Assembly (NCBI GenBank): GCA_027603065.1
Contig: JADGJP010000041.1
Coordinates: 149,900-213,899, forward strand
Length of the DNA stretch: 64,000 nt
Direction of reading: 5' to 3'
DNA from: Geranomyces variabilis
Taxonomy: Eukaryota > Chytridiomycota > Chytridiomycetes > Spizellomycetales > Powellomycetaceae
Both the position numbers and the translations under genes were made by a program. Below the pieces are notes generated by a model. That model searched no databases, was not told the origin of the DNA, and saw only the letters and a program-made list of their open reading frames with translations. How positions within the stretch are numbered: position 1 is the first letter of the stretch; the number at the start of each line of letters is the position of its first letter. This document shows, in pieces, positions 36,675 to 64,000 of the stretch.

Positions 36675-37703
36675 TCAAACAAAAAAATTAGTGGTCGCAT
36701 TGTCCGCAGCCCACTTCCAGAAAGCAAGACCCAATTGGGCAGTCCACGCCGAGGCCTTGAAGTATTCATTGTGAGTCTTACTGCACGGGCAGGTGATCGG
36801 GACAGAGGCCGGTTCGAGGAACTTGTTCACCAGGTTGTCGTAGCGGTAGATGTCGTCGAAGTACACGGACGTGAGATGGTGGTCAATCTCCGCCTTGCAG
36901 GCCCCGTTCTCATGCTCTTCGATGCAGGTGTCGACCTCATCATTAATGTCTTCCATGAAATCCACGCCAAACTTAAAGACAACCGGCCCGCCCTGCGCCG
37001 GCAACAGATCCGGAATATACATATGCATTATTACGATGAAGTTAGACCCACCTTGACCGCGTCGGCCCCTTAAATCACCTATGCGTTCAAACATGTAGAA
37101 ACATCCGCCGGACTTGTCCCGAACGCACGTCGTCACGTTGCGGACAACGTGCCCAGCTGCTCTGCGCAAGATGTTGACGTCCGTGCCCACATCTCCCTCC
37201 GTGTACTTGCCCTCCAGGCCGTCGTAGGTCATCGATGCCACAACGCGGATGGCGGCAAGGTGCGCGGCCGTCATATGTTTAGAGCAAACACAGAAACCAT
37301 CGGCATCCCTACGCTGGTGCACAAATTTCGCGCATTTGACTCCAGTTTCCAGGTGGAATCCTTGACAGGGGCTCTTAATCTTGCGCGCTAGATGACCGAC
37401 GCACACAAATCCACGGAATGATCACGAACGGAAGTATATTAGCTCAAAAAGGAGAGGCAGAGGGCATGCGAATAAAAACGGCCAAACAGTGGCTAAGCAC
37501 ACGAAGATCTCAACGCGCACGCAAAGAAGAGAGAAGCAGTATCGCAAGTGCAAAACCGAGCTGGCATAATTTGGTAACTTACGAGACCGGGCTTTGAACG
37601 AGTCGTTGGCGGGGTCCACGCCGAAACCGAGAGTCCATTGTCGGGTGCCATTGTGGTCGTTCAGCGAATCATAGGATCTCTTGCGAGGGGGCGTCTTGCA
37701 CAT
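36675..37703 (-). CDS. GIY-YIG / T5orf172 (MUG113, DUF1766)-like protein
   Basis: Two exons: 37703-37583 and 37387-36675; 277 aa. After a basic start (MCKTPPRKRSYD) comes a Cys/His cluster (CQGFHLETGVKC and GFCVCSKH) with the pattern of the zinc-binding head of fungal MUG113-like proteins. A middle segment follows (CFYMFERIGDLRG, VVFKFGVDF). The C-terminal part has IDHHLTSVYFDDIYRYDNLV, then CPCSKTHNEYFKAS. The order of a KFG strand, a helix with H(L) and a final CxC..H.E.F motif matches the T5orf172 form of the GIY-YIG nuclease fold. The canonical GIY and YIG tripeptides are not clearly preserved, so catalysis is doubtful. Related proteins are often multicopy in fungi. Alternative: an unrelated zinc-binding protein. 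Confidence 0.5.
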
Positions 37704-38408: not shown

Positions 38409-38600
38409 AACCCGCTTCGGAGTGTCGAAGGCCATGCCTGCAAGTAGGTGAAAACCCCGTTCTGGAGTGTCGAAGGCCATGCCTGCAAGTAGGTGAACAC
38501 CCCGTTTCGGAGTGTCGAAGGCCATGCTTGCAAGTAGGTGAAAACCCCGTTTTGGAGTGTCGAAGGCCATGCCTGCAAGTAGGTGAAACCCCGCTTTGGT
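38409..38600. repeat. Minisatellite A, 45-bp unit, about 4 copies
   Basis: The core GGAGTGTCGAAGGCCATG recurs at 38419, 38464, 38509 and 38554, exactly 45 bp apart, with only a few substitutions between copies and a partial unit at the end. Because 45 is divisible by three, reading frames stay open through the array on both strands (15-residue repeats). Confidence 0.95.
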
Positions 38601-38606
38601 GTTAGG

Positions 38607-38890
38607 TCACTGACTCCAGAGTGCTGGCGTAACAGACTTGTAGGTGTGGTCATTAGATTCCGAGATGCTGGCGGAGCAGACTTGTAGGTGTGGTCATTAG
38701 ATTCTGAGATGCTGGCGGAGCAGACTTGTAGGTGTGGTCATTAGATTCCGAGATGCTGGCGGAGCAGACTTGTAGGTGTGGTCATTAGATTCCGAGATGC
38801 TGGCGGAGCAGACTTGTATGTGTGGTCATTAGATTCCGAGATGCTGGCGGAGCAGACTTGTACGTGTAGTCATTCCATTCCGAGATGCCG
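38607..38890. repeat. Minisatellite B, 44-bp unit, about 6 copies
   Basis: The core GATGCTGGCGGAGCAGACTT recurs at 38664, 38708, 38752, 38796 and 38840, exactly 44 bp apart. Degenerate edge copies lie near 38620 and 38884. It starts within a few bases of minisatellite A but has an unrelated unit. Confidence 0.95.
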
Positions 38891-50477: not shown

Positions 50478-52859
50478 ATGGACACCCAAATACCAGAGGC
50501 CGAACAAGCCGAAGCAACTCTCACCACCGTCCTCAAACAAGCCCGCACCGCGCTGCTTACATCCGTGTCCCCGCTCCTTGCGACCCGCGACAATCAAGTC
50601 GAAGAGCAACGCGAGCGCATTGCACAGTTACAAGACGCGCATGCGCGAGCAGAAAAGCGCGAGGCAGCGCTGCTGGCAAGGCATAGGGATTTGCAAGGGG
50701 ATTACCATAACTTGATTACGATTGCAAGCGAGCTGGTGCAGACGCTTACGGCGTGTATCAATGGAGAGAAGGTGTGCGCAGAGCGGGATTGGGTCTGGCG
50801 GTAGGTTCTGAGGTCGCTGTTCTTTTTCCTAACTTTTTTTCCTCGGTTTAGATAACTCCAGCGTATCTGTCGGGCATATGCCAGCGCCTAGCGTCGTTCA
50901 AGCAGAGCAGTTCGCGCAAAAGCTCTATCGTGCAATCATCGGATCCGGCAACCGCCGCCCAACAACAACCACCTCGCGCTCCACGGCGCACCGACAGGTA
51001 GACTAAGAGGACGTGTCAAGCGCGGTCTTTCAATCACATGCTCAAGCTAAAGGCTGACGATTTCCTGTTTCTTGTTTCCTGTTCTGTCAGTTCCGCACAC
51101 ATTGCACGCGCGGCGGATCCACCACCGCCGCGACAGCTGCCCCCGCTCGCTCACCCCACCACCATCACCACTGCCGTCAGCACCGTAATACCGCCAGTCG
51201 CTGCCCCGACGCCCGCAGCACCACCACCCATCCTCGACCTCACCAAAATATCCACCGACCTCCAACGCAGTACCGATACCAAATGCTCGCAACTCCTGCA
51301 AGCGCTCCGCCTTTTGGCTACACGCGCATCAACACCAACACATACCCGCCGTGTGCTACAGTCCTACATTGCTGCCGATCTGTTTCTGCTCCGTACCACG
51401 TCGCCGCTATTACCTTTTCTGCTCTTATCGCCACACCCGGAAACAAGTCTCCAGACCACAATGTTGCTAAATGCCATGACGTCGATTTCCGCAGGAAGGG
51501 GTTATGTGCTTCTCAGCAGGGATGTCATTCCAACCTTACTAAACCATACATTCGCGACAAACTCGACAACAATAACACCCGCGCACCACCATCACAGTCT
51601 CCTCACGCTGCAAAAGCTCTCCCTCCGGCGATCCGCACAATCTCAAATGAACGACCTTCAGACATTGACGCGGCTTTTTGCGATGCTGGATGATACGCGT
51701 GGGGATTTGGATGCGTTGGCGCCCGCGACGGTCGAGTACGCGAGTGCATTGGTGATGAATTTATGTCTGAGGACGAAAGGAAGGAAGGAGTGTATGAATG
51801 GAAATGAGGATCGGGTTCTGAGGGTTTTAAGTGCGGTGATGGAAGTTGAGAGCTTGCAGGTGAGGCAAATGCAGAACTCTCACGCGGACTCGTAAGCACC
51901 ATGTAACTTACTCTTTTTTCTCTCATTCTTTTTGTCTCTCGCCTTCAGGTTAAGACGTATATCAACGGCACGCTCTACAGCCTCTTTGCAGAGCCGTCAC
52001 TGCGTGACGCGGCGCGCGCGCAAGGGATGGAAGATATGCTTTCTTATATGCGCGAGTCGGAGGACGAGCAGCTCGTTGGGCAAATCGATTTTGTGCTCAA
52101 ACAGCTCGCGACAGAGGAGGATACCACTAATAATGGCAACGACAAGAAGGAAAAGAAGGAAGCTGGCGATCCTGAAGGCGGGGATGATGGTCAGGATGAA
52201 GAAAGAGAAGGAGAAGGAGAAGGAGAAGCGGAATTAGGCAAAGCTCAAGAATCAGACAGCGCGGAATCCGAAGACGGAGAAGAAGACGATGACGACAACG
52301 AAGAAGACCTAGCAGCCGAGTCCGGGTCAGACGTCGATGACATCGACGAGCGCGAACACGATGGAGAAGAAATTGATTTAGACAACGCGGGGACGGCGTC
52401 ATCGTCAGTTGTCGTAATTGATCCAGCCCTTGTGCTCGCGCCATATTACGTGGCCGCACCAACAGCAACAGCAATGCCGACCAAAACAAACGGGAGCCGG
52501 AAACCGTCCGTGAGCGTGGGCCTGGGTGTGTTGCCAACACGGCCAACGACCCCCCTGGCGTCGTCGTCATCGTTGCGCAGTAGCTTTGTAAAACGGAAAA
52601 GCGGCGGCGGAGGAGTTATATTGCCTTCAAAAGACGAGTAAGTTTCGCTTTATCTTTATGGTCGGGGAGGAAGAAGAGGGCGGGTGAGCATGAAGGGCCC
52701 TGACAGCCGTCCCGAAAGCTTCTACACAAGATCAATTCAATGATTTGATGTTGACCCACTTTCCCTTTCCCCAGAATGAAAGAAATCTCTGTCGGCTTCT
52801 CCACGCGCCCCAAAATTGCGCGGACGCCGCTTCCGGGAGAAACTAGCGCGGTGTGGTGA
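50478..52859 (+). CDS. ARMC9: ARMC9-like ciliary base protein
   Basis: Five exons: 50478-50771, 50852-50997, 51091-51859, 51949-52637, 52775-52859; 660 aa. ARMC9 localises to basal bodies and ciliary tips and acts in the TOGARAM1/Joubert module. Residues 1-98 are a coiled coil ending in DYHNLITIASELVQTLTACINGEK, followed by ITPAYLSGICQRL, both typical of the ARMC9 pre-armadillo region. Residues about 180-450 are armadillo-like helices, with the diagnostic VKTYINGTLYSLFAEPSLRDAARAQGMEDML at 404 onward. An acidic stretch follows (about 450-530), then GFSTRPKIARTPLPG near the end, also found in animal ARMC9. The N-terminal LisH motif of animal ARMC9 is not visible. A splice after 50771 rather than later is required to keep the family frame. 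Confidence 0.87.
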
Positions 52860-56263: not shown

Positions 56264-58010
56264 TTACGGCAGCTGCGGGTCCGTTGTCGCGCCGACGTCT
56301 GCAGCAACTCCCCTTCCTCTCGGCTCCCGCGCACACGCAATCATCGAATCCTTCTTTCGACGGAATTCCACGCTCGTGCTTGCAAACGACGATTTCTCCA
56401 CCAGCAGCGGAATCTGCTTGCCCATTAGATACAGCTTGTTTCCGATTGCGTCTTTTAATGAACGTGGTGGCGGCGGCGACTTTGTGTTAGTTGTTATAGT
56501 ACTCGGCGTGTTGAATTTGGCAAAATGCCGCGCAAAGATAAATCCCGTCATGTAGGCGTCAAATCCAGCGGAATGGAAATGCTGTGATGCCGGATTTGGT
56601 GGCGGTTCTAATGGTGGTAATGGCGCGTCGGGCGGTTGCGCCTGCTCTTCCTGCGGCTCCGATTCTCGTTGGTTTTCCACGTCGCTTGTGTTGATTTTGC
56701 CATCCACGTCGTTACCACTGCTGTTGTTGGCCGGCAGTGGTGCCCCAACCAAACCTTCCACCTTTCCATCCGCTTCTTTTCGCGACCCGCTTCCTCGCAT
56801 CCTTTTCTTGTTCCCACCAGCCGCCGCATCCGCAGCCTGCGCATCCAGAATCACGTCCAAATCGTGAGTCTTGCCGCAATACCGGCCATTGCGGCAATAC
56901 CCGTGCGACGCATATTGCGTGCAATACGGCTTTTCGCTGTCCGGCCTCCGGCGTTTGTTACTGCCTTCCAACTCGGTTGTTGCTGGTGGTGCTGGTCGCG
57001 GCATCCAGCGTTTGGACTGCGGGAACACCACACGATCGCGGATGGTGCATGTGACGGATCGGCCTGAACCGGCTGCCCGCATCGCTTCTTGTTCACGCTC
57101 GCTGGAGAGCGAAACAAAACAAAAGAAAGGAAACAAATTAAATTCTGCGCATAAGACCGCGGTTCCTCCCGCCTCGGAGAGTCTACAAACTCACCATTTT
57201 TTAAATAAATACGCCAGATACGTCGACTTTTCCTTGTACACGTACTCGGAAATATACTTTGTGTCGTAAATCCCCGCGGGAAACATCGCCTCCAAGTCCG
57301 CGACAAATGTCTCCAGATCCTTGGGCAAGCCGGCGAACAGCGCGTTGTACATGAAGAGTAGGTCGAGCAGACCGTTGTGCACAACTACGGGAACGTTCCG
57401 TGACAGCAGGTGCAAGAAGATGCTCCGCATGACGACATTCGTGTCGGTCAGATCATTCGTTTCCTTGTCGTTACCCGGCCAGTAGAAAATCCCGTCCGTG
57501 TACTGGCGATTGAAGTCGAACCCGTTATCGACGAGAAACAGCATGCTATCGGGCGCGACGGTAAACGGCGCGTTGGAAAGCATAATGAATTCAAAATTAT
57601 GCACTGCGTATTCGTATTGCGATGCGTCGCCAGACTCGGGTGCGCTGATTAGTTCAAAAACGGAAAGGCCGAACGAGACGACTGCGTGTGAGCTGGCGAT
57701 TTTGGAGAGAACGGTGTAGCGTTCTGCAATGTTTCTGAAAGAAGAAAACAATTTAAGTCGTAAGACTGGCTCTCTTGCTTCTCTTTATTCGTTTTCCTCC
57801 TGTCTTGGTTGTCACTTACGCAGCCTTTGAATCGAGGCCTTTGCCCAGGCCGGTAAACTCGCAGTCGATTGCAAAGTGGTGGGCGCGGTCAAGCACGCTG
57901 CGAATGAGAGACTGCTTGTCGACGATATTGTGCCTAGTGATGACGTTGAATTGCGGAGTGCTGGTGCTAGTGAGTGTCGGGGTCGTCGCTGCTGCCTGGA
58001 CAGGCATCAT
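56264..58010 (-). CDS. TOE1: TOE1, CAF1-type DEDD 3' exonuclease with CCCH zinc finger
   Basis: Three exons: 58010-57820, 57734-57195, 57101-56264; 522 aa (human TOE1 about 510). TOE1 trims 3' tails of snRNAs and other small RNAs in Cajal bodies and the nucleus. The DEDD fold shows the first acidic pair in DCEFTGLG (Asp49, Glu51), the second in VVHNGLLDLLFMY and the last in HSAGFDAYMTGF. Between the second and last motifs sits a CCCH finger, CTQYASHGYCRNGRYCGKTHD, in the position and spacing that distinguish TOE1 from PARN and CAF1/POP2. Lys/Arg-rich patches (KRRR, KKRMRG) suggest nuclear import. The start reads MMPVQ. It is divergent from the APSES gene with only 85 bp between starts. Confidence 0.93.
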
Positions 58011-58095
58011 TGCTGTGGTGTGGGGCGAAAGATGGGGACAACCCCCACGCAGGCTGCAGCACACTCTCCATTCCTTCCTTCACCCATCCCCAACA
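58011..58095. promoter_or_regulatory. 85-bp bidirectional promoter TOE1 / APSES factor
   Basis: The start codons of two divergent genes are 85 bp apart, so promoter and 5' UTRs must overlap or initiate inside the neighbouring gene. A GGGCGAAAG element near 58022-58030 resembles the GCGAAA core recognised by Swi4/E2F-type regulators. Whether it is used is unknown. Confidence 0.4.
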
Positions 58096-58620
58096 ATGCC
58101 GTCTGCTACCCTCCTACGAAACGAAATTTCGGGCATATTTCCGTTTGCACGGCCTACTGCTCCCAAAGCTTCTTCTGCTGCTTCTTCTTCTTCGCCTGCT
58201 GTCTCCGCTACCGACGATGCTTCCGAACCTGTAGACTCGCATGCAGGCAATCTTGCGCCTCTGCTCCTCCCGCGCGGCCCAACCCCACCGCCGCCGACAC
58301 ACCCAACAGCGCTCATCCCACCGCAACAAACCCCATACGAAGCCTGGAACGATCCGCGCTACTCCTTACCCTCGCTCCAACCCAGCAAACCCATCTATCT
58401 TCCAGCGCCAGATCACAGCAGCACGCCGCTAGCGACCCCAGTGGGCAAAAATCAGACGCGACTGCAGCGCCAAAACTCGGCTGCCACAATGGCAACAGCC
58501 AATGCGACGCCGCAGTCTTTGTCGCAGGTGCCGATGCAGCAGCGGCAGGGCATGATGATGCAGCCGCAGATGTATAGCGCTGCGCAGCAGCAGGCGGTGT
58601 ATGGCCAGCCTCAGCAACAA

Positions 58621-58658
<38 letters not shown>

Positions 58659-59476
58659 TCAGCAACAATTTTCGCAGCCGATGGACAGGTCGCAACTGCA
58701 GCATCTTTTGAACTCAATTGCATCGCCTATGGACGGGTACCAGATGTCACATCACGTCTCGGCCCCACCATTATCATCAGCATCTTCATCGTATCAGCCT
58801 CAACACCTCCACAACCAGCAGCCCGCCCATTACATGCAGCAAGCGCAGCCACAACAACAGCAATACCACCATCAGCAGCAGCAGCAACAATCATCAGCAT
58901 ACTACGCCAGCATGCCCCCCGTCAGCGTCCCTGCCTTCCGCCCATCAAATTTCAACGTCCCATTCTCGCACTCCAACATGCTATACTCCAATGGCAGCTC
59001 CCCAATGTTAATTCCCTCGACTCCACGGCGCGCACCGCAAGTCCCGCGCCGTCCCGCCAACTTTAATCCGCCGCGTGAGGGTCTCTATGAAGCTACATAC
59101 GCCGGCCTACCCGTCTACGAACTCATTTCTCCCAATGGGACCGGGATTATGAGGCGAAAAATTGATTCATGGATGAATGCGACGCAGATATTGAAAGCTG
59201 CTGGGATTGAAAAGTCCCGTCGGACGAGGGTGTTGGAAAGGGAGATTCATCAGGGCGAGCATGAGAAGATTCAGGGCGGTTATGGGAAATACCAGGGAAC
59301 TTGGTAAGTGAGAGAGAGTAATAGTGCGGTTTTTTATGTGCCCTCGCACGCGCGGCTAATGAATAACTGACTCGTCGTTTTGTCCCTTTAGGATACCGTT
59401 GTGGAGGGCTAGAGAGCTTGTGGGCGAGTATGGGCTGGGCCCAGCTCTCAACAACATCCTCGACATCCCCGAATAA
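58096..59476 (+). CDS. APSES/KilA-N transcription factor, StuA-like architecture
   Basis: Two exons: 58096-59303 and 59392-59476; 430 aa. The N-terminal 330 residues are low complexity: Ser/Ala/Pro-rich, then Gln-rich with an uninterrupted CAG/CAA-encoded run near 58615-58656 and further Gln/His tracts to 58900. The C-terminal 95 residues form an APSES (KilA-N) DNA-binding domain: YELISPNGTGIMRRKIDSWMNATQILKAAG, KSRRTRVLEREIHQGEHEKIQGG, YGKYQGTW and IPLWRARELVGEYG. The intron splits the GTW/IPL junction. No ankyrin repeats follow, so the layout resembles StuA/Phd1 morphogenesis regulators rather than Swi4/Mbp1. Nuclear DNA-binding activity is confidently inferred; targets are unknown. The sequence ends soon after the domain. 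Confidence 0.93.
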
Positions 59477-59740: not shown

Positions 59741-60994
59741 ATGCTGTCTTCCTTGCTTTTCTCCTCTTCCTCGGCCTCCTCTGCCTCCCCACCGCCGCCC
59801 TATGATCCGACGACTCCAACGACAACCGCCTCGCAAATAGCAGGCTGCATTAGCATTCTCTGCTGGCTCTCTGTATTCACCCCGTAAGTATCTCCACATT
59901 GCATCCGAAGAGAAAAAGAGCTACGCCTCGTATTTACGTAACATACGTTTGTAGTCAACTGTGGCAAAACTATGCACGAAAGTCCACCGACGGCTTGTCA
60001 GTTTCGTTTATCGTTGTATGGCTGTTTGGGGACGTGTGCAGTTTTGCGGGCGCATGGATGCATCGATTATTGCCTACTATGGTAACTTGAAAGCGGCGAG
60101 AGCGTGAGGGAGTCAATGGCACGCAACAAAACTGATTATTTTTGTCTTCGTGTTTGGTCTAGATTGGACTGAGTGTTTACTACGCCGTCGTTGAGCTCTT
60201 TCTTTTATACCAAGTCTGGCTGTATCGCACGCCGCCGCCCTCCCCGGATGCCGCTGGAACGCTTTCAGAAGAGTCTCCGCTACTGGCATCTTCGCCCACC
60301 TCTGCTTCCTCCTCCTCTACGGCGAAAGCGACAGCGACAACGACACGATTATGCTTTGTAGCGGCCTCGCTGCTCGTGTGGAACATGTCTACTAGTAGTT
60401 CCGGCATGGGGGTCAGCAGTAGCGTGAACCACCAACGCGCGTGGTCATCAGCCTCAACATCTGCGCTATCGGCTAACGACGAATGGAGTGCCGCGCGTGT
60501 CGCGGATGTGCTTGGATACGTCTCCGCAGTCGCATATGGTGCGTTCTCGACGGCAGAAACCCACAGTAATGCATTGACATGGTTTCCCTGCTCTCCTTTC
60601 CTAATCAAATTCTCTCGCGTTTTCCTTCTCGTTCCAAAGTTGGAGCACGTTTCCCGCAAATATACCTCAACGCCGTTCGCCGCTCCTGCGCAGGCCTCTC
60701 GCTCTACATGTTTGTGTTCACCGGACTAGGAAACGCGTCATATATCGCCGTAAGTCATTCTTATAAAAACCCTCGGGGCACGTTTTTGTATTTCTCACGC
60801 TTCCTGTGTGTTTTTATCGCTAGTCTATTTTGCTACAATCAACTTCACGCTGGTATATCAAGAAGAACTTGCCATGGATCCTTGGATCCGGACTGACGCT
60901 GCTGTGTGATTTGGTGATCTTGGCGCAGGCACGGATGTATCGCCGGCGGCGAGGGAGCGGAGCAGGGGGCGGACACGAAGTAGAATATGCGTAG
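59741..60994 (+). CDS. PQ-loop vacuolar/lysosomal amino-acid transporter (YPQ/PQLC2 type)
   Basis: Five exons: 59741-59883, 59955-60081, 60163-60538, 60640-60749, 60824-60994; 308 aa. Two PQ motifs are visible: PQLWQNYARKSTDGLS (residues 48-49, the proline codon split by intron 1) and FPQIYLNAVRRSCAGLS (221-222), each at the end of a membrane helix and followed by the usual S/C-x-GLS turn. Hydrophobic helices surround them in a 3+1+3 layout (ILCWLSVF, FIVVWLFGDVCSFAG, GLSVYYAVVELFLLYQVW, LCFVAASLLVW, FVFTGLGNASYIA, ILGSGLTLLCDLVILAQ). Ypq1-3/PQLC2 proteins move cationic amino acids across the vacuolar membrane. A Ser/Thr-rich loop with an EESPLL dileucine-like sorting signal lies between the repeats. 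Upstream in-frame Met codons exist; the chosen MLSS start precedes the first helix. Confidence 0.9.
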
Positions 60995-61638
60995 AATGTT
61001 TTAGTGGACTACTCTACAAACGTGGGCGGCCGCGTTTTTGTTTTTTCTTTTGTAATTTATTTTCGATACGTCTGAATTGTGCAATGTATTCTGCCTCAGT
61101 CGTTGAGAGAGCGGTTGACTTCTGTCGGTGCGACTTCCACGCAATCGCGGATGCGTATGTTTCTTTGAAGTCGATGCCTTCATGCCTTCGCGTTGAGTAA
61201 AGCCGCGTGCAACCGTGACTAAACTTGAACGCGCTTTGAACTTCTTAATCGTGCCGTCGGTCACTGGCATGCAGCGCACTCGCTGCACAGCACCCAACCA
61301 TTCCCTCCTTTCCCATGCAGACATCTCTTTTTCTTGTGTCGCCCTCCTCTGCCTGCCTTTGCCTACTACGCTGCATGCCGCAGCATTCTGACTGTGCTGC
61401 TCTCTCTCAGGTAAGTCCAGACTCATGCTCATGCAGCCCACTCCGCACAGCAGCAGCGCCCAACCATTCCCTCCTTTCCCACGCAGACATCTCTTTTTCT
61501 TGTGTCGACTACGCTGCATGCCGCAGCATTCTGACTGTGCTGCCCTCTCTCAGGTAAGTCCAGACTCATGCTCATGCAGCCCACTCCGCACAGCAGCAGC
61601 GCCTAACCTTAGTTTCCTCCTTTCCATGCTTCGCACCC
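60995..61638. other. Intergenic region upstream of the Fanzor-like gene
   Basis: These 644 bp contain a direct duplication (61294-61610, listed separately) directly in front of the Fanzor-like start codon. This may be the 5' flank or leader of a mobile element. No other gene was seen. Confidence 0.5.
61294..61610. repeat. Imperfect direct duplication, units about 167 and 143 bp
   Basis: The segment starting CAACCATTCCCTCCTTTCCC at about 61294 recurs at about 61461, and the part with GGTAAGTCCAGACTCATGCT at 61410 recurs at 61553. Copies differ by a 24-bp insertion and a few substitutions. Each copy contains a CTCTCTCAG/GTAAGT junction resembling a fused acceptor and donor site. Confidence 0.85.
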
Positions 61639-63498
61639 ATGTCTCGTCGCCGCCGCCGCTCATTTAACCTACACTCTTTTCCACGGACGCCGCCTCTCGG
61701 GTCGCCGCCACCCAGCAAGCGTCAACGTTGGAATGAGGAGGCCGCCAGCCATGCTGCAATCTTTGTAGGAGACGCTGGCGCACAGCTGGACGAGGTTGAA
61801 GAGGTGGACGTCGGCGCAATGCAGCTGGACGAGGTTGAAGAGGTGGATGCTGGCGCACAGCTGGACGAGGCTGAGGTGGATGCTCATAACGGCTTGCGAT
61901 GGCGAGCACCTCAGAGGTGGGCCAATTCACATGGCCCTCCACCGCCGCTGCCACCCAAGCGCTCGCCGCCCAGCAACTACGTGTGCGTGAAAGCCCGTTT
62001 CGGTTCGATCATTCACGATAACAAGGCGGGTGAGGTGGCAAGACTTAACGTCTTTTTGCGCCACATGCATCTTATAACCCAACAGGCGTCATGGATCATG
62101 AAGCTGTGGTACGCCAATATGCCACACCCGCAGGTATTGATTCAATTCAAAGCATTATTATCCGTCATATATTGACTTCCATCTTTTTTTTTTTTTTCAA
62201 GCGTACACAGATCTTGACAGCCAACGACGTCAAACATCTGCTGGATGCCCTCAACTACGGTGATATCACTTGCGGCGGCATCTTTCAAGGCACGCTGCAC
62301 GATTATGACGCCAATGTTGAGAATCTGACGGCAGTATCACAAGGCCCAGGGTGTGGACGTGGCATTCTTCAAAATACGATTGCCTACACCGCTACCAGCT
62401 TGGTTACAAACCTTGAGGTCAACGTGTCTGTCAACTTCATGAAGAAGTTGTGCCAATACGTCGAGCGCAGGTTTTGCATCAAGGCGATCTTGCGGGAGTT
62501 CAACCACGTTACCAACAAACGCATATGCCAGTTCCTGTGTAAACCTCTGCGGCATCATTTCAACCGGCTGTGGAGGCTGATCACGAACCTGGATGTTCTC
62601 TTGGAGGATGAACTACCTGCTTTTGAACCGGCTTTCGAGACTACTTTCTTTGATATTTGGGGTAAGATCTGGAGCATCTTGCCAAATGATCCAAAACGCT
62701 TTGAGTTCAATCTTGCATATGCGGTGGCATGCGAACCCGTGAAATACGTCGGTGCATACTGCGCACTCTCTTGCTTGTGGCAAGCGGCACAATTTCCGGC
62801 CTTCTTCTGGGCTATCCCTGTTCGCACCAGCCATGTTCAATCATATATTCCCATTGACACGAAAACACTTCTCGATGTTATAACTTGCCCACCTGGCCGT
62901 TCAAGGCTACCCCACTCAAGTCCCGAGCAAAAGCTGGCACATTGGAACATGCTTTGCAATGTCAGCCACAAGTTGTTCCAAGATCGCGGAAATTATAAAT
63001 TTTCAGGTATTGCATTTGTGATGCTGTCTGCGTTCATACATTACTATCATACTAATTGCTAAATATCTTTTGGGAACCATCATGACGGACGGCGTCGGTG
63101 TCTCCGTTCGGCATGTCGACATGACCAAGGTCATCGTGACTACGAACGGCCATCCTGTGATGCCAAAACCATGCAAAGTATCTAAGGCAGCTCAGCGTGC
63201 AGCGGTCGACAGGCTCTACATCGACACGTCAGAAAACGCTGCAGTTATTTGTGACCGCATCTTGCATCCAGACCCCAATGCGCCGGTGGTCCTCTGCGAT
63301 CCAAATGTCCGCGACATGCTGTATTTGAAAGAGTACGGCACCGACAATATCATGCGGTACACACTCTCGCAGCAGAAGAAGGAAACAGAGGCTCGCGAGC
63401 ATGTTAAGGAGTGCAACAAGGACCGGCTTCGCAACTTGCCAGCGCCAGGCGGTATGGGATCTTTAGAGGCAACAATGCCAGGGCACAAGTCAATGCTG
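61639..63498 (+). CDS. Fanzor-like (TnpB-related) RNA-guided nuclease, N-terminal part, possibly defective
   Basis: Three exons: 61639-62133, 62211-63006 and 63074-63498. The N-terminus is basic (MSRRRRRSF), then has acidic tandem repeats (QLDEVEEVDAGA-like, 61786-61885). Family blocks follow: the VKARFGSIIHD..RLNVFLRHMHLITQQAS start, FFWAIPVRTSHVQSYIPIDTKTLLDV, KFSG/TIMTDGVGVSV and the RuvC-I segment VVLCDPNVRDMLYLKEYG with its Asp codon at 63298-63300 (about residue 506), then RYTLSQQKKETEAREH. This order and spacing match Fanzor nucleases, which use a guide RNA to cut DNA. RuvC-II, the zinc finger and RuvC-III are not present before a GTAAGT donor at 63499, so they would lie beyond the window or be lost. 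Intron 2 has no AG acceptor (GG at 63072-63073). Without splicing the frame stops at 63062. Confidence 0.78.
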
Positions 63499-64000
63499 GT
63501 AAGTCATGGTGGCGGTAGTGGGAGTGCACGGCAATGTGATGCGCGCAATGCTGTGATGCACGATGCAGATGCTGTGGCGCGCGATGCAGATGTTGGATTG
63601 CATGGTGGATGCTGTGGCGCGCGATGCTGTGGCGCGACGCATACGCAATGCGTGCTGAAACGCGCAATGCAGATGTTGAAGTGCAATGCAGATGCTGAGA
63701 TGCGCACGGCGGATTGCATGATGGATGCTAAGATGCGCGATGCGCGATGCGCGATGCAGATGCTGGAGTACACAGCGGATTGCACGGCGGATTGCATGGT
63801 AGATGCTGTGAGGCTGTGATGCGCGATGCTGAGATGCTGTGATGCGCGATGCAGATGCTGGAGTGGGTGGATGCTGAGATGCTGTGATACACGATGCAGA
63901 TTCTGGAGTGCACGGCGGATGCTGAGATGCGATGCGCGATACTGGAGTGGGCGGATGCGGTGATGCGCAATGCGCGATGCGCGATGCAGATGCTGGAGTG
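63499..64000. repeat. Minisatellite-like array in the presumed third Fanzor intron
   Basis: From about 63535 to the window edge the sequence is an irregular array built from GATGC, GCGCGATGCAGATGCT and GGAGTGCACGGCGGAT words. It begins about 35 bp after the exon-3 donor (GTAAGT at 63499). Long frames in it on both strands encode only repetitive Ala/Met/Asp or His/Ser/Ala sequence and are not genes. Confidence 0.85.

Follow-up and report, generated by a model that had tools for sequence, protein, structure and literature searches.

Structure of the locus

Close to the end of the window, which is the whole stretch of 64,000 nucleotides of Geranomyces variabilis DNA analysed, lies what is probably (at a probability of roughly 0.93, as judged from sequence comparison) the 5' portion of a Fanzor1 gene with introns. 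The three motif blocks that the initial annotation had placed at 61639-63498 are found there, on the + strand and in the order it had given, and its reading of the locus as Fanzor-like is borne out by matches of two exons to SpuFz1, the Fanzor1 protein of Spizellomyces punctatus. Three exons are predicted (Table 1), all of them free of stops (165, 268 and 141 codons). The first begins with the earliest in-frame ATG, taken as the predicted start, and is joined in phase to the second by a canonical intron. Seven long stop-to-stop frames taken for comparison have a GC3 of 0.54-0.65; exons 1-3 (0.63, 0.56 and 0.65) come close to this, so that the composition of the gene does not look foreign. A tblastn search of the 64-kb window with all three exons, run to E=10, found no further copies, the non-self matches being short and chance-like (the best, E=0.038, falls in the low-complexity part of exon 1).

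Table 1. Predicted features of the putative Fanzor1 gene and its flanks, in window coordinates.
Feature	Position	Strand	Description
Overlapping duplicated block	61268..61625	+	61268-61479 and 61430-61625, 82% identical, 23-bp gap; self-blastn
Exon 1	61639..62133	+	165 aa; open frame, first in-frame ATG
Intron 1	62134..62201	+	GT-AG, 68 nt, phase 0
Exon 2	62202..63006	+	Probable REC/WED part of Fanzor1; phmmer match to SpuFz1
Intron 2, presumed	63007..63073	+	67 nt, GTATTG donor, TACTAAT branch-like site, GG 3' end
Exon 3	63074..63498	+	TDGVGVSV, RuvC-I motif CDPNVRDMLY, RYTLSQQKKET; second half aligned with SpuFz1
RuvC-I DPN codons	63298..63306	+	Aligned with SpuFz1 D383, N385
GTAAGT donor, then diverged minisatellite-like repeats	63499..64000	+	To the window end

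Upstream, a KilA-N (APSES-like) gene occupies 57757-59476, where its frame opens at 57757 and its spliced stop ends at 59476; the KilA-N match (E=0.00029) is below the Pfam cut-off, and the gene contains a polyglutamine tract at 58612-58664. A gene for a PQ-loop-like membrane protein, named by eye from its translation, is found at 59741-60994; no Pfam model matched its exon at 60163-60729 with an E of 0.01 or below. ARMC9-like ARM repeats are encoded at 51907-52638 (Pfam E=4.4e-15); ARMC9 is a protein of the ciliary base, and such a frame would plausibly fit a flagellated organism. Elsewhere in the window, two adjoining tandem arrays with units of 45 and 44 bp (4.1 and 6.1 copies, respectively) lie at 38411-38888, and a weak T5orf172 match (E=0.0081, below the Pfam cut-off) is located at 36678-37421 on the - strand. 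Neither tRNAs nor, at gathering thresholds, any Rfam families were detected in the window.

Identity of the gene

A phmmer search of 177,635 distinct PDB sequences with exon 2 retrieved SpuFz1 (PDB 8gkh and six further entries) at E=4.5e-19, and the same protein was matched by exon 3 (query 63079-63498) at E=0.0022, or 0.005 for the aligned stretch alone. In the phmmer alignments identical residues occupy 67 of 191 aligned positions in exon 2 and 23 of 65 in exon 3, which amounts to about 35% identity over exon 2 and the surroundings of RuvC-I. The two matches are collinear on one SpuFz1 chain, at 523-714 and then at 772-836. If chain position 777 is taken as D383 the offset would be 394, and in SpuFz1 numbering the aligned parts would then correspond to about 129-320 for exon 2 and 378-442 for the second half of exon 3. 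At E up to 10 the search with exon 2 returned four sequences, namely SpuFz1, PpFz1 of Parasitella parasitica (PDB 9cf0 and three further entries) and two unrelated proteins (0.1 and 0.3), while that with exon 3 returned three, SpuFz1 and two unrelated ones at 1.1. The match to PpFz1, in the later part of exon 2, is weak (E=0.053 for the whole sequence, 2.9 for the best single stretch), and was absent at E up to 1 when the last 53 residues of exon 1 were joined to exon 2. PpFz1, a protein described as having a RuvC insertion, the FRI domain (accessible text of PMC11423790), is much more distant from the new gene than is SpuFz1. A single-sequence fold of exon 2 had a mean pLDDT of 41.7, which is too low to use.

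On these sequence comparisons the assignment of the predicted protein to the Fanzors, and specifically to Fanzor1, is supported. An alternative is that SpuFz1 was matched by chance, or that the gene belongs to some other RuvC/RNase H-like family. In line with such an explanation, the exon pieces have no significant match in Pfam-A or NCBIfam (a single chance match has E=1.6), including the TnpB models of these collections (OrfB_Zn_ribbon and OrfB_IS605, representing Fanzor2 and bacterial TnpB), although the zinc ribbon region lies outside the sequence searched. Relatives were likewise not confirmed in viral and prokaryotic collections, which hold no eukaryotic genomes and were searched by a coarse pattern step: in the viral contigs exon 2 alone gave no pattern match, alignment A1 gave 32 and alignment A2 (exon 3) 57, and in the genome contigs alignment A2 gave 30, none of which was confirmed. 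These are weak negatives. The strength of the exon 2 match and the second, collinear match on the same chain speak against both chance and another family, which are ruled out at ordinary standards by the two matches and have a negligible probability.

The RuvC-I active site

In the alignment to SpuFz1, Asp 777 and Asn 779 of the chain stand opposite the DPN of the window, and the RuvC-I Asp (codon 63298-63300) and Asn (codon 63304) are both kept, facing D383 and N385. The metal ligands of SpuFz1 are given as D383, N385, E541 and D606 in the accessible text of Saito et al. 2023 (PMC10432273). The RuvC-I catalytic Asp of the new gene is found within a D-P-(G/N) motif, as expected of a Fanzor1; a further DPN in exon 3, at 63271, is distinct from that of CDPNVRD. 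RuvC-I carries DPN, not DPG, in SpuFz1 as well as in the new gene. Since RuvC-I in Fanzors is near exclusively DPG according to the part available of a 2023 Nucleic Acids Research paper (PMC10711439), the DPN appears to be a peculiarity common to the new gene and SpuFz1.

The catalytic half of the protein had been described in the initial annotation as lying past the window or being lost. RuvC-II, the zinc finger and RuvC-III are not in the sequence to 64000, but the first catalytic residue, the RuvC-I Asp, is inside. The last third of SpuFz1 accordingly has no counterpart within the window, and the counterparts of E541 and D606 and the zinc finger would fall past 64000, where further exons would carry the RuvC-II Glu, the zinc finger and the RuvC-III Asp. 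Together with a guide RNA derived from the element's 3' end, a whole protein of this kind would be predicted to cut guide-matching DNA beside a short adjacent motif, as SpuFz1 does.

Splicing and the 3' side of the gene

Homology places the second exon junction between 63006 and 63074, and intron 2 then ends in GG, not AG. Its donor is identical to that of intron 1, and the two introns are nearly equal in length (67 and 68 nt). Seven introns were examined, all placed by eye, comprising the two of the Fanzor1 gene and five of two neighbouring genes; six of these end in AG (intron 1 and all five of the neighbours), the exception being intron 2. The earliest AG after the intron 2 donor ends at 63129 and is out of frame, the first that keeps the frame ends at 63178 and its use would lose TDGVGVSV, and retention of the intron brings an in-frame stop at 63060-63062, so that the protein would end ahead of RuvC, its last codon being 63057-63059. 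The GG end may reflect a sequencing error, a rare non-canonical intron or decay of the splice site, and because of it splicing into an intact protein is uncertain. The presence of GG instead of AG raises the chance that the copy is decaying.

On the 3' side, the alignment to SpuFz1 reaches the last residue of exon 3, directly before the GTAAGT at 63499, and goes no further. The exon 3 frame read on through 63499-63816 gave no alignment to SpuFz1, and the only other match at E up to 1 was to an unrelated dynein regulatory complex protein (0.89). From 63541 to the window end the sequence is a diverged, GATGC-rich minisatellite with 23- and 45-bp periods among others, and, looked at by eye, all three + frames of 63499-64000 are repeat-derived. 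Here either a long intron begins or degraded sequence sets in.

One explanation, to which somewhat better than even odds may be given, is an intact Fanzor1 gene with a long, repeat-filled third intron. Consistent with this, a donor follows immediately upon the last aligned residue, the exons are open and the repeats start only past the donor. However, the introns examined measure 67-101 nt while the third would exceed 500 nt, and the GG end of intron 2 also speaks against an intact gene. The locus may instead be a truncated or decaying relic; what is left would be the 5' part of a once mobile element in which the intron 2 acceptor has mutated and repeats have taken the place of the C-terminal part. 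The deviating acceptor, set against the AG of intron 1 and of the neighbouring genes, agrees with such decay, as does the finding of repeats rather than homologous sequence at 63499-64000. Partial copies are also common in S. punctatus: the accessible text of PMC10432273 counts 42 loci there, complete and partial ones together, of which 19 are full-length. Against decay, on the other hand, stand three exons without stops or frameshifts and a canonical donor at 63499, and a single splice-site base could be a sequencing error or belong to a rare non-canonical intron. A relic is a tentative explanation, with a probability of about one in three.

The N-terminal arm

The product of exon 1 begins with MSRRRRRSF and continues with acidic repeats and a Pro-rich stretch. 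The repeats are imperfect, about 13 residues long, and correspond to a 39-bp period with 2.8 copies at 61771-61874. The features for which the N-terminus had been called unusual in the initial annotation, its opening run of five Arg and its acidic repeats, are both real. The core of the Fanzor presumably starts at the end of exon 1 (NYVCVKARFGS...). Ahead of the aligned part stand 221 predicted residues (165 from exon 1 and 56 from exon 2). SpuFz1 has about 128 there, which makes the predicted arm longer by about 93 residues. Searched alone against the PDB, exon 1 gave three matches with no Fanzor among them (best E=0.29), and the alignment to SpuFz1 grew no longer when exon 2 was extended by the last 53 residues of exon 1 (E=8e-19); exon 1 is consequently placed in the protein by frame and splice site only.

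The Arg run and a KRQR motif may be likened to nuclear-import signals, and the Arg-rich, KRQR-bearing arm would be disordered and serve nuclear import or protein contact. A more elaborate proposal is that the Arg-rich start, KRQR, acidic 13-residue repeats and Pro-rich linker form a modular arm, absent from SpuFz1, which steers the enzyme towards a partner or a compartment in the nucleus, with the GT-GG intron limiting its production. This is considered improbable.

Flanking repeats and possible mobility

Just upstream of the start codon lies the overlapping duplicated block, possibly the 5' flank of an element. Each of its copies holds CTCTCTCAGGTAAGTCC, in which an acceptor-like and a donor-like site stand back to back, and one copy has a 23-bp extra stretch. 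The inverted repeats in 60990-64000 amount to five short pairs, none of which (minimum 12) joins the 5' flank to 63499-64000, and the right end of the element is not within the window.

Relation to known Fanzors

Spizellomyces punctatus is a chytrid and is, like Allomyces macrogynus, flagellated. With SpuFz1 as the nearest solved relative, and with the KilA-N (APSES-like) and ARMC9-like frames in the window, the initial annotation's placing of the gene in a flagellated fungus is plausible. Fanzors reportedly contain introns and nuclear signals, according to a survey of eukaryotic and viral Fanzors in Science Advances in 2023. The first description of a Fanzor was from S. punctatus (PMC3627910), and the accessible part of that paper by Bao and Jurka (2013) counts three Fanzor1 families each in S. 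punctatus and in A. macrogynus. Fz1 is called highly spread in fungi in the portion available of Saito et al. (PMC10432273). SPu-1-1p of S. punctatus consists of a single ORF according to PMC3627910, whereas the new gene has two introns in the part seen. In this it may be likened, by description only, to the Fanzor1 genes of Chlamydomonas CRe-1, 2 and 3, which are also exon-split, into five or ten, and are carried by presumed Helitrons, as stated in the same accessible text (PMC3627910). Since Fanzor1 has been published from S. punctatus and Allomyces, and in exon-split form from Chlamydomonas, the gene appears, as far as these partial texts reach, to be an ordinary further Fanzor1 and no surprise.

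The finding leaves the understanding of the family unchanged and would carry greater weight were the complete gene, the guide RNA and the copy number known. What it adds is one more probable Fanzor1, about 35% identical to the first Fanzor1 to be solved, and a further instance of DPN at the active site, a motif in which an Asn would join in metal binding, both of which may be of use in surveys of the family and in the choice of orthologues.
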